Shown piece by piece: positions 3,521 through 49,132 of a stretch of 59,189 bases of DNA. Within the stretch, counting starts at the first letter, position 1. Every line of letters starts with the position of its first letter. The translations under genes were made by a program, and so were the position numbers. The notes under the pieces are model-generated. The model did no database searches. It was not told where the DNA came from and worked only from the letters and a program-made list of their open reading frames with translations. The DNA is from Bacteroidales bacterium (GTDB lineage Bacteria > Bacteroidota > Bacteroidia > Bacteroidales > P3). The stretch is taken from the NCBI GenBank assembly GCA_031272245.1, contig JAISUE010000004.1:1-59189 (forward strand), in the 5' to 3' direction.

Positions 3521-3716
3521 ATAAAAATAAAAAAGTTGTTTTATTTTATTTGAATATATTTGGTTAAGAATAATTTAGATACATATATATTTGTTATTAT
3601 TACTAATTATTTATGTTGCAGAAATATAATTTTGAAATTCTCCATATCGGAAAAATATTTTGCAAAATAAATCTTTATTGCACGGCGTAAAAAATATTAA
3701 TTGTGTAACAATAGCG

Positions 3717-3800
3717 ATAAATCTTGATTAATTGCTAATAAATTTTGATTATTTGGGAATAAATCTTGATTAAGCACAAAATAATTTTGATTATTTAGAA
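3717..3800. repeat. 21-bp-period AT-rich repeat array A (metG-hutI gap)
   Basis: Four copies of a degenerate unit, about AATAAATYTTGATTAT. The core TTGATTA starts at 3724, 3745, 3766 and 3787, an exact 21-bp step, and an inverted AATCAAATTT follows. The array lies between the divergent promoters of metG and hutI. The same kind of unit recurs at 6824, 37248 and 49070. The rest of the 3491-3919 gap is AT-rich with the two promoters. Confidence 0.8.
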
Positions 3801-6731: not shown

Positions 6732-6823
6732 ATTAAAATTACGCTATATTTTTTTGTACCGTTTATTAAAGGAGTTATAAAAGTATATAAGATAAAAATG
6801 AAATAAGTCAAATATATAGAATT

Positions 6824-6886
6824 TTATAATCAAGTTTTAGAAATATAAATCTTGACTTTATATTTTTTTAATCAAGTTTTATATTT
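6824..6886. repeat. 21-bp-period AT-rich repeat array B
   Basis: Three consecutive 21-bp units. Read on the minus strand they are of the type AAATATAAAACTTGATTAAA; the middle unit carries the TTGA core in the opposite orientation. The outer TAATCAAG motifs start at 6827 and 6869, exactly 42 bp apart. The array lies between the divergent antiporter and SUMF1-like lipoprotein genes, like array A between metG and hutI. Confidence 0.7.
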
Positions 6887-20999: not shown

Positions 21000-21007
21000 C
21001 AAAAGTA
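21000..21007 (-). promoter_or_regulatory. -7 promoter box of mutA
   Basis: Minus-strand TACTTTTG, 37 bp before the ATG at 20963. It is divergent from the duplicated plus-strand promoters that follow. Confidence 0.5.
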
Positions 21008-21045
21008 GTGTTTTTTTTAAATATTCATTTATTATTATTTTTTAC

Positions 21046-21053
21046 TACTTTTG
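21046..21053 (+). promoter_or_regulatory. -7 box P1 of duplicated unit
   Basis: TACTTTTGCAAC contains TAnnTTTG. Predicted transcription start is near 21060. P2 lies 168 bp downstream. Confidence 0.5.
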
Positions 21054-21059
21054 CAACAT

Positions 21060-21146
21060 ACGTTATTTATTATTTAAATAATAGTAATTTTCATATTGAT
21101 TTGAAATTGACAGACATGGCGGGTAATATATCCGCCATCTGTTTTA
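21060..21146 (+). ncRNA. Candidate small RNA, copy 1
   Basis: Begins about 6 nt after a TAnnTTTG box and ends in a long hairpin: an ACAGA..TGGCGG arm, an AATAT loop, a CCGCCATCTGT arm, then TTTT. No open reading frame with a sensible start fits inside. The length would be about 85 nt. Structure and duplication support it; expression is unproven. Confidence 0.4.
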
Positions 21147-21213
21147 TGAGTTACGGCATGACAAAGAAGACATATTTTTTACGTAAAAATATTCATTTAT
21201 TAATTTTTTTTAA

Positions 21214-21221
21214 TACCTTTG
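21214..21221 (+). promoter_or_regulatory. -7 box P2 of duplicated unit
   Basis: TACCTTTGCAAC, matching TAnnTTTG, exactly 168 bp after P1. Confidence 0.5.
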
Positions 21222-21227
21222 CAACTT

Positions 21228-21316
21228 TGTTATGTTATAGTATAATTTTCAATTTGTAGGTTTTGTTTACTTATTATTGTGAAAGGGCGGGCAATATGTC
21301 CGCCTTTACTTTTGCC
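21228..21316 (+). ncRNA. Candidate small RNA, copy 2
   Basis: Same layout as copy 1. Its hairpin GGCGGGCAATATGTCCGCC differs from copy 1 (GGCGGGTAATATATCCGCC) at two paired positions, T-A changed to C-G, which keeps the stem and the AATAT loop. The outer stem also changes on both sides (AAAG with CTTT). Confidence 0.4.
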
Positions 21317-21367
21317 CCATATCAATAAAAAAATGCCACATATTGATACGGTTTCAAGATTTTTTTG

Positions 21368-21375
21368 TACTTTTG
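21368..21375 (+). promoter_or_regulatory. -7 box P3, before the 82-aa ORF
   Basis: TACTTTTGCAAT, a third plus-strand match in the same gap. Transcription would start near 21382, 28 nt before the ATG at 21410. Confidence 0.5.
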
Positions 21376-21409
21376 CAATATCTAACAACATAAAAACGAA
21401 AATTACAGC

Positions 21410-21658
21410 ATGTCAAAACGTATAAATATCTCAAAAAACAACAGGTCGCACTACTTACTGCATATCTCCGATTTATGCTGCAATTCATACCGCAATTCAT
21501 ACCACACATACCTTACAAATTATGAAACATACAAAATATTGAGCGGTACGTCCCACAAATTCATTGGTACGTACCGCAAATTCATTGGTATGTACCACAA
21601 ATTCATTGGTACGTACCTTTTTGATTTTGGTAGGCATTATAATTTTGAACATAAATAA
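21410..21658 (+). CDS. Small ORF or leader of unknown function (82 aa) with 7-residue repeats
   Basis: An 82-residue reading frame placed well behind promoter P3. The second half contains the repeated heptad HKFIGTY / RKFIGMY / HKFIGTY, encoded by 21-bp DNA repeats, and is rich in Tyr, His and Asn. No signal peptide, membrane segment or known domain is visible. It ends 44 bp before the 227-aa gene. It may be a real small protein, or the repeats may act as DNA or RNA elements in a leader with an incidental frame. I cannot decide from sequence; composition (many Tyr, Ser and Asn, few acidic residues) is poor for a normal protein. Confidence 0.35.
   Translation: MSKRINISKNNRSHYLLHISDLCCNSYRNSYHTYLTNYETYKILSGTSHKFIGTYRKFIGMYHKFIGTYLFDFGRHYNFEHK
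21545..21617. repeat. 21-bp repeat of palindrome GGTACGTACC
   Basis: Four GGTAcGTaCC palindromes at 21545 (imperfect), 21566, 21587 and 21608, each separated by an 11-bp spacer RCAAATTCATT. A shorter 12-bp direct repeat CAATTCATACCR lies at 21481-21504. This differs in sequence from the AT-rich 21-bp intergenic arrays, although the period is the same. Confidence 0.85.
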
Positions 21659-21702: not shown

Positions 21703-22386
21703 ATGACTTACAGTAAGGATTGGATATTTAGAAAAGAGGATGATTTTTTTCATCAGGCTGAAGTTCAAGTAGATTACTATGACCAGCAAAAAGAGTTCCT
21801 TGAAATTCCAAGTGCCACAGTTACAAATTTGAAAGCCGAATTTCAAAAGTATAAATCCGACTACGAACTTTATCTGGCAAGCAACAAAAGCGCCACAAAG
21901 CCGGATACCATTAAACGGAATATGCATAAAGAAGTGGTTATCGGATTATTACGGGATATGTACAACTTGTACGTGCGTCTTAATCCAAAAGTGAAGAATG
22001 ATGACAGAGAAGCAAACTATTTTCCTGTATTTGACACCAAAAAAACATCGCTTCACCCGCCTCTTGAACCGCCTGTCTTTGAAGTTAAAGCAATGGGACA
22101 CGGATTGATAGAATTGGCATTCGGATATAATATGACGGACGGCGGAAAACTCTCTCACGGTTTGCCAAAAGGTGCGGACGGAGTTGCAATTCATTACTTC
22201 ATAGGAGATGTTGAACCGACTACAGCCGACAAAATGCTGTCGTGGGGAGTAGATACGAGAAGCCCAATTAAAATGATATTCGGTGCAGAGAACGAAAGCA
22301 AAAGAGTATGGATCGCAATGAGATATTTCAATGTCAAAGGCGAGTATTCATTGTGGTCGGACATAAAGTCACTGGTAATCAATTAA
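21703..22386 (+). CDS. Conserved Bacteroidetes protein of unknown function with C-terminal FN3-like domain
   Basis: 227 residues, no signal peptide. The N-terminal half is helical and starts MTYSKDWIFRKEDDFFHQAE; I know similar starts with 'KDW..RKE' from uncharacterised Bacteroidetes proteins. The second half (from LEPPVFEVKAMGHG) looks like a fibronectin-III-type beta sandwich ending in VWIAMRYFNVKGEYSLWS. A short proline-rich linker (SLHPPLEPPV) joins the two. It is behind promoter P3 and the repeat ORF, and before a terminator-like hairpin. Codon use is less AT-rich than in the flanking non-coding DNA. Function is unknown. Confidence 0.8.
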   Translation: MTYSKDWIFRKEDDFFHQAEVQVDYYDQQKEFLEIPSATVTNLKAEFQKYKSDYELYLASNKSATKPDTIKRNMHKEVVIGLLRDMYNLYVRLNPKVKNDDREANYFPVFDTKKTSLHPPLEPPVFEVKAMGHGLIELAFGYNMTDGGKLSHGLPKGADGVAIHYFIGDVEPTTADKMLSWGVDTRSPIKMIFGAENESKRVWIAMRYFNVKGEYSLWSDIKSLVIN

Positions 22387-22397
22387 GAAAAAGTTAA

Positions 22398-22488
22398 GGG
22401 GTAGCCGAAAACCTTTGATAGAGTAGGCTTGGTTTTAAAATAGTAAATACAGTGAGAGGCTAACCCACAGGGGATGCCTCTTTTTTTT
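22398..22488 (+). terminator. Terminator with overlapping antiterminator pairing, before porZ
   Basis: AGAGGC (22455-22460) and GCCTCT enclose a CCC/GGG inner stem and are followed by eight T: a good terminator. GGGGTAGCC at 22398-22406 can instead pair with GGCTAACCC at 22458-22466, 8 of 9 positions, which would take up the 5' arm of the terminator. No TAnnTTTG box lies between here and porZ at 22556, so porZ may depend on read-through. Confidence 0.65.
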
Positions 22489-37247: not shown

Positions 37248-37331
37248 AATAAAAATGTTTTGATTTTAGAATAAAAGTTTTTAATTTTGGATTAAAATGT
37301 TTTGACTTTGGATTAAAATGTTTTGATTTTC
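37248..37331. repeat. 21-bp-period AT-rich repeat array C
   Basis: Four head-to-tail 21-bp units of the type GATTAAAATGTTTTGATTTT (37248, 37269, 37290, 37311). The third and fourth are nearly identical. It lies between the unknown membrane protein gene and the aminopeptidase gene. This is the clearest of the four arrays. Confidence 0.9.
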
Positions 37332-37367
37332 AATAAATGTAAATAATATCATTTTTAATTAAAATAG

Positions 37368-47720: not shown

Positions 47721-49070
47721 ATGAAAAGAACGTTTTTTTTAATAGCAAATATTTTTGTTTTTGTTGTAAATGCTTTATCTCAATCGGTGCTTCCAACGGA
47801 TGCTTGTGCGGAAACAGATGAGCGTATAATAGATAAAATAGAACAATGGCAGGACTTGAAATTCGGTTTTATGGTTCATTGGGGAATGTATTCGCAATGG
47901 GGAATAGTTGAAAGTTGGAGTGTATGTAATGAACCATGGATTTCTCGTAATGGGAAACCTTATGATGATTATAAGAAAGAGTATTTTTCTTTGAACAAAA
48001 CATTTAATCCTGAGAATTTTAATCCTGATAAATGGGCAGAGATTGCCGAGAAAGCAGGAATGAAATATTTTGTTTTTACTACCAAACATCACGATGGTTT
48101 CTGTATGTTTAATACTAAACAGACAGATTTCAGCATTGTTAATAAACAATGTCCATATTCTGTTAATGAAAAAGCCGATATAACAGGTGAGCTTGTAAAG
48201 AGTTTTCGTAAAAAGAATTTTTGGACTGGATTATATTTTTCCAAACCTGATTGGCATAATGAAGATTACTGGTCGCCTCTTTGGGCTACTCCAGACCGCA
48301 ATGTTAATTACAACATAGAAGATTTTCCGGATAAATGGGAACGGTTTTGTAATTTTACTTATGAACAGATAAAGGAACTAACTACTCAATATGACCCTGA
48401 TATACTTTGGCTGGATGGAGGTTGGATACGTCCTGTGTGGAGTTTGAATGAAGAAACTGCTGAATGGCTTGGATGTTATAAAAGAATACAGGATATAAAT
48501 ATGAGTCGTATAGCCATAATGGCAAGAGAAACTAATCCAGAACTTATTATAGTGGATAGGAGTGTTGGGGGAAAGTATGAAAACTATCATACACCTGAAA
48601 AAAAAGTGCCTGATTCTGTGCTTTTGTATCCGTGGGAAACTTGTATGACAATGGGTGAAAGCTGGTCGTATGTGCCTGATGACAATTATAAATCGGTTAA
48701 TACTTTGATACATCTTTTAATAGATATTGTTGCAAAAGGTGGAAATCTTCTGTTGAATGTTGGTCCTGATGCTCAAGGAGAGTTACCTCCGCAAGCTATT
48801 CAAAGAATGGAAGCAATAGGAGAATGGTTATCGTTAAATGGACAGGCTATTTATGCTACAAAACCTGTGTTTCCATACAAAGAAGGTAATATTTGTTATA
48901 CGCAATCAAAGAAAAATGGACAAATTTATGCTATTTATTTGCTTGAAGAAAATGAGATGTTGCCTGAAAAAATAGTGGTAAATAAAAATGGTGAAATAAA
49001 AAAGATAAAAATTTCACGCAAACAGCAGAAGCAAAGTAAATGTTCTCATGCTGTGGTTTTTCCTTTATAG
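47721..49070 (+). CDS. Secreted alpha-L-fucosidase (GH29)
   Basis: 449 residues with a signal peptide (MKRTFFLIANIFVFVVNALS). The GH29 barrel is clear: KFGFMVHWGMYSQWG near residue 48, MKYFVFTTKHHDGFCMFNTK near 113, and ILWLDGGW near 230, whose Asp is the nucleophile. YPWETCMTMGESWSY and GGNLLLNVGPDAQGELP are further family blocks. It removes terminal alpha-linked fucose from glycans in the periplasm or at the surface. There is no lipobox or T9SS domain. The adjacent GH2 gene suggests glycoprotein-glycan use, but no SusC/SusD pair is here. Confidence 0.94.
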   Translation: MKRTFFLIANIFVFVVNALSQSVLPTDACAETDERIIDKIEQWQDLKFGFMVHWGMYSQWGIVESWSVCNEPWISRNGKPYDDYKKEYFSLNKTFNPENFNPDKWAEIAEKAGMKYFVFTTKHHDGFCMFNTKQTDFSIVNKQCPYSVNEKADITGELVKSFRKKNFWTGLYFSKPDWHNEDYWSPLWATPDRNVNYNIEDFPDKWERFCNFTYEQIKELTTQYDPDILWLDGGWIRPVWSLNEETAEWLGCYKRIQDINMSRIAIMARETNPELIIVDRSVGGKYENYHTPEKKVPDSVLLYPWETCMTMGESWSYVPDDNYKSVNTLIHLLIDIVAKGGNLLLNVGPDAQGELPPQAIQRMEAIGEWLSLNGQAIYATKPVFPYKEGNICYTQSKKNGQIYAIYLLEENEMLPEKIVVNKNGEIKKIKISRKQQKQSKCSHAVVFPL

Positions 49071-49132
49071 ATTAAAAACTTGAATTTTAAGATTAAAATT
49101 TTGAATTTGTATATCAAAATCTTTATTTTTGA
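49070..49132. repeat. 21-bp-period AT-rich repeat array D
   Basis: Three 21-bp units starting at 49070, 49091 and 49112, of the type GATTAAAAnTTTGAATTT. It begins at the last base of the fucosidase stop codon and fills most of the gap before the GH2 promoter. Confidence 0.8.

Follow-up and report, generated by a model that had tools for sequence, protein, structure and literature searches.

Tandem putative small RNA genes with conserved ends and diverged middles in a Bacteroidales genome

The DNA analysed here (the window, a 59,189-nucleotide stretch from a Bacteroidales bacterium) contains two short units, spaced exactly 168 bp apart, that are probably tandem paralogous small RNA (sRNA) genes. 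Both follow one plan, in which a promoter is followed by a 61-letter variable middle and then by a hairpin stop signal; judged by alignment, the ends appear conserved between the units and the middles diverged. A sequence-only reading of this DNA had seen covariation as a sign of a kept RNA structure and had proposed either two short RNAs or two copies of a structured leader element. The proposal of two short RNAs fits well: each unit has a promoter box, a predicted length of ~85 nt and an intrinsic terminator, no reading frame is conserved, and another locus elsewhere in the genome follows the same plan. A conserved RNA family demonstrated by covariation is not supported.

On comparison of positions 21000-21420 with themselves at offsets of 20 to 300, the best ungapped segment falls at offset 168 (score 30.2; runner-up 12.4). 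The boxes (21046 and 21214) and the hairpins (21118 and 21286) both recur at precisely this spacing, bearing out the two tandem box-and-hairpin units described earlier, and the distance from box to hairpin is 72 nt in each. All elements lie on the forward strand. The promoter region of unit 1 (21019..21057), AT-rich upstream of its box, is a 39-nt direct repeat with 90% identity to its counterpart in unit 2 (21187..21225), and the AT-rich promoter stretch common to both units is identical at 35 of 40 positions. The -7 box of unit 1, TACTTTTG (21046-21053), matches the TAnnTTTG consensus of Bacteroides sigma-ABfr (PMC7366714), and that of unit 2, TACCTTTG (21214-21221), is its 168-bp repeat. 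With one TAnnTTTGCAA box of the Bacteroidales promoter type per unit, each has a promoter of its own at the sequence level; a -33 TTTG motif, which would lie 19-21 nt ahead of the box, is visible in neither. Aligned part by part, the units agree at 24/27 positions in the upstream region (0.89), 10/11 in the box (0.91) and 17/19 in the hairpin (0.89). A further copy of TACTTTTG, the fourth box, lies within the T-rich tail of hairpin 2 (21307-21314). The third box, again TACTTTTG (21368..21375; direct repeat D3, 154 bp past box 2), had been assigned to the start of the following gene; it is present, and is likely to be the promoter of that gene.

Between these ends, the middles (21057..21117 and 21225..21285, the latter characterized by alignment and fold tests) are equally long (61 nt each) and look unrelated in sequence. 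Their identity is 38% ungapped and 62% gapped, compared with 60% for shuffled sequences (z 1.1). Folding of the two (z -1.2 for unit 1, -0.9 for unit 2; mean -1.05) lies within the background of 347 segments behind other boxes (P 0.11). As modelled, the RNA of unit 1 would be ~85 nt long, opening with an AT-rich 5' stem-loop that a linker joins to the terminator, while that of unit 2 would be alike but fold less well.

Each hairpin is 19 nt long. Hairpin 1, GGCGGGTAATATATCCGCC (21118..21136), has a stem reaching ~21110-21142, and that of hairpin 2, GGCGGGCAATATGTCCGCC (21286..21304), reaches 21283-21307. With up to three mismatches allowed, the hairpin pattern matches exactly twice in the window, against none in 100 shuffled versions, and these two remain its only matches in the whole 1.80-Mb genome. 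Folding z scores are -4.7 and -4.8, respectively. Both hairpins are also recovered as terminator-like sites, defined by a hairpin with a T-rich tail (2 found vs 0.3 expected in shuffles), although the tails are weak: CTGTTTTATG follows hairpin 1, and TTTACTTTTG, which is interrupted, follows hairpin 2. At the sequence level, each unit has an intrinsic terminator of its own, weak tail included.

The differences between the two hairpins had been taken as covariation and hence as evidence that an RNA structure is kept. The compensatory change in the closing pair, from T-A in unit 1 to C-G in unit 2, is real, though small. The outer stems had been described as changing on both strands, which is true of the pair adjoining GGCGG/CCGCC on its outer side (T-A to G-U) and not of the next outer pair, A-T; this pair and six other inner pairs, 7 of the 9 counted, are unchanged. 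With two sequences, such changes show only that each copy can form a stem, as terminators must, and pair-keeping changes are expected of any terminator. Since each hairpin, together with its T-rich tail, is recognizable as an intrinsic terminator, the conserved pairing needs no special RNA fold.

Homologues of the window hairpin were sought in 149 relatives, comprising three same-genus genomes and 146 from elsewhere in the family and order. The pattern search found a promoter-linked hairpin in none of the 149, including none of the three from the same genus, and likewise gave no promoter-linked copy in GTDB contigs and IMG/VR. GTDB contigs contain just 21 exact copies of the hairpin, and most of those outside Bacteroidota are apparently coding, judged by their context. 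Near-identical hairpins in three distant Bacteroidota (L039, L025 and L013) occupy terminator positions: in L039, from Prevotellaceae, GGCGGGCAATATGTCCGCC stands after a gene resembling those for FKBP-type peptidyl-prolyl isomerases and is followed by TTTTTT, while in L025 (exact) and L013 (one mismatch) the hairpin runs into T tracts. Because these three matches are plain gene terminators, the motif can be regarded as a good terminator hairpin whose pairing needs no other reason. With no promoter-linked copies, and with matches elsewhere that are coding by context or plain terminators, a conserved structured RNA family of Bacteroidales was rejected. Rfam 15, which may lack a FopS model in the copy used, gave no match to 21000-21420 at the gathering threshold, and raising E to 10 added chance-level hits only. 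Synteny is lacking even inside the genus, the DNA upstream of mutA being unrelated in each of the three same-genus genomes. As far as searched, and for the window and array hairpin types that the searches covered, the units appear to be species-specific.

A scan of this genome, an assembly of 86 contigs, for a box, a hairpin and a T run, covering 1.743 of 1.802 Mb (97%), revealed another locus with the layout of the window pair. The scan returned 413 hairpins with an upstream box, forming 21 close clusters, and only at two places do neighbouring hairpins copy each other: the window pair and the terminal parts of contigs C83 and C46 (L241:7072-7858 on G000:C83; L198, G000:C46:20280-21965, minus strand). 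The C83 and C46 ends have ~35 nt of overlap in common, from which we infer that they probably form one array. This array, in itself more striking than the window pair, contains 19 hairpins, its exact number of units being uncertain owing to the contig ends. Its hairpin has the form TCCGARAG..AACA-GNRA-TGTT..CTTTCGG with a mostly GNRA loop and is followed, with few exceptions, by T runs; in many units the terminator T run passes directly into the next box. A TAnnTTTG box is present in 15 of the 19 units, the remainder having a changed box or being cut by a contig end. The middle measures 63-73 nt in ten long units, five of them at exactly 67, and 25-27 nt in five short ones. Identity is ~0.86 among the hairpins and 0.61, the chance level, among the long middles. 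A 5' stem-loop is predicted in every one of the ten long middles, with a mean z of -1.59 vs -0.06 behind 347 other AT-rich boxes (P ~4e-4).

How close is the array to the window pair? Both have tandem promoters, a middle of near-constant length and unrelated sequence, and a constant terminator, and the distance from box to hairpin is 70-79 nt in the long array units vs 72 in the window pair. In contrast to the pair, the array has a different hairpin, short units and some lost boxes, and its sequence is unrelated; the likeness is confined to layout. A covariance model of the array hairpin (R1) gave 19 matches at C83/C46 and weak matches only in the other 119 genomes, and none at the window units even at E 10. 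Base pairs in the array hairpin have no double changes and nothing above shuffles, so no covariation is claimed for it. Clusters from the pattern search occur in this genome alone, and the relatives' loci that were examined showed no array of this design. Phage origin was rejected for the units and the array (short AT-rich phage matches only, and no viral contig with the array hairpin), as was plasmid origin, the array having no plasmid match. The window pair is best regarded as a miniature of the layout that the array shows at large.

The surroundings of the pair have features of their own. The following gene (21703..22386, forward strand), outside the units, encodes a 227-aa protein of a multi-copy, nearly genus-restricted family without a Pfam match, which has 5 matches in this genome and 8, 17 and 16 in the same-genus genomes. 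Several copies lie at contig ends, further copies are found at L092, L093, L102, L103, L105, L115, L118 and L120, and a 106-aa reading frame at 32041-32361 matches the N-terminal part of the family (E 3e-16) and is apparently a truncated copy. Many copies have an array of 21-bp repeats just upstream, with a differing unit; the one in front of the window gene, also outside the units, comprises 3.5 copies of GGTACGTACCACAAATTCATT (21545..21617, forward strand, by Tandem Repeats Finder), a unit that recurs at C60 (L218:17983-18120) and C67. Repeats of this type also occur in the window at 3710-3796, 6817-6881, 37252-37337 and 49064-49120, their period in the genome being nearly always 21 bp (or 42, 63, 84) with many differing unit sequences. 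In C46, a 42-bp tandem repeat comes directly after the hairpin array, followed by a DUF6261 gene (C46:20015, minus strand). The association of both loci with such a repeat and a downstream gene lacking assigned function is suggestive at most: 148 such arrays are present in 1.74 Mb, which makes the repeat neighbourhood weak evidence, and a link of units and repeats into one system was rejected given their ubiquity. Nor do the units belong to a dispersed 860-bp repeat around the next gene, since that repeat starts at 21527. Short reading frames that follow a TAnnTTTGCA promoter contain poly-G tracts of ~6-12, possibly reflecting phase variation; they lie upstream of the family gene at L105, L093 and L103 and also occur at L153 and L154. 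A DUF805b RNA (RF02914, 41.5 bits) lies at 22395-22429, just past the stop of the 227-aa gene and before a PorZ-like gene, and has 4 copies in this genome and more in relatives.

Could the units act on the gene that follows them? Tandem promoters with early terminators might throttle the 227-aa gene through conditional read-through, as leader or attenuator copies. Every box and hairpin is oriented towards that gene, and the C83/C46 array likewise lies directly upstream of 21/42-bp repeats and the DUF6261 gene. However, a leader element is disfavoured by the terminator that closes each unit and by the separate box of the gene at 21368; the copy of the gene at C67, 88% identical and carrying a premature stop, has a promoter and repeats and lacks the hairpin units, and 21-bp arrays are frequent throughout the genome. 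The earlier alternative of two leader copies is, on this evidence, rather improbable.

It is somewhat less doubtful, though still unlikely, that the units yield no functional RNA, being either a decaying local promoter duplication that includes a spare terminator, or a set of terminators insulating the mutA promoter, which is divergent, from the gene downstream. The lack of conservation within the genus, the unrelated middles and the copy number of only two would agree with this. Nevertheless, promoter and hairpin are ~90% kept while the middle has diverged fully at constant length, a pattern not readily obtained from drift alone, and the same layout recurs in the genome at another, longer locus. 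Small proteins are the least credible reading by far. The hairpins would then stand at the start of short reading frames, and a frame of 47 codons is indeed open from ATG 21116 to 21259, but AAG replaces this ATG in unit 2, which makes coding unlikely, and the frame extends into the next promoter and has no Pfam match.

For the sRNA reading, which we prefer, each unit would be transcribed from its own sigma-ABfr-type promoter. The RNA would start a few nucleotides past the TAnnTTTG box, at ~21058-21060 and ~21226-21228, and end ~85 nt on at the intrinsic terminator hairpin of its unit. The pair would have originated by a 168-bp tandem duplication, after which promoter and terminator were retained while the middle, the would-be target-pairing part, diverged at constant length. 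The two transcripts would most likely regulate in trans, each with targets different from those of the other.

Known sRNA families usually conserve the seed while the remainder drifts. Neisseria NgncR_162/163 and Listeria LhrC1-5 are arranged in tandem and keep near-identical target-binding regions or seeds. Both are sibling or multicopy sRNAs (PMC9973317; PMC5880928) and, like the predicted genes here, are duplicated short sRNA genes with a promoter and a terminator each; in the window pair, by contrast, the middles are at chance level, and the systems are not homologous. Within the Bacteroidales, FopS is a family of 14 paralogous sRNAs of Bacteroides thetaiotaomicron conserved across Bacteroidaceae (PMC11697453). 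Like the candidate pair, FopS sRNAs are paralogous, with sigma-ABfr promoters and 3' ends formed by terminator hairpins, but the copies are not described as tandem and have a 5' single-stranded seed in common. The window pair is tandem, variable in its 5' part and confined to this species as far as searched; the shared 5' seed of FopS and GibS is absent, its middles being at shuffled identity. A transcription start site and terminator of its own mark a high-confidence sRNA in B. thetaiotaomicron (PMC7366714), and paralogous sRNAs with their own promoter and terminator are already accepted for Bacteroides (PMC7366714; PMC11697453). What would set the present units apart from the known Bacteroides families is the tandem layout, the restriction to one species as far as searched, and the variable 5' part.

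The window pair, and more clearly the 19-hairpin array, combine constant ends with a middle that varies at near-constant length. It is possible, though the idea is tentative, that tandem sRNA arrays of this species hold promoter and terminator constant and replace or diversify the middle without changing its length, with the 5' stem-loop shape kept in the long array; the two independent arrays, with different hairpin types, would then be a dedicated maker of many short RNAs. If transcribed, such arrays would illustrate how a single cassette design could supply a Bacteroidales species with many different sRNAs.
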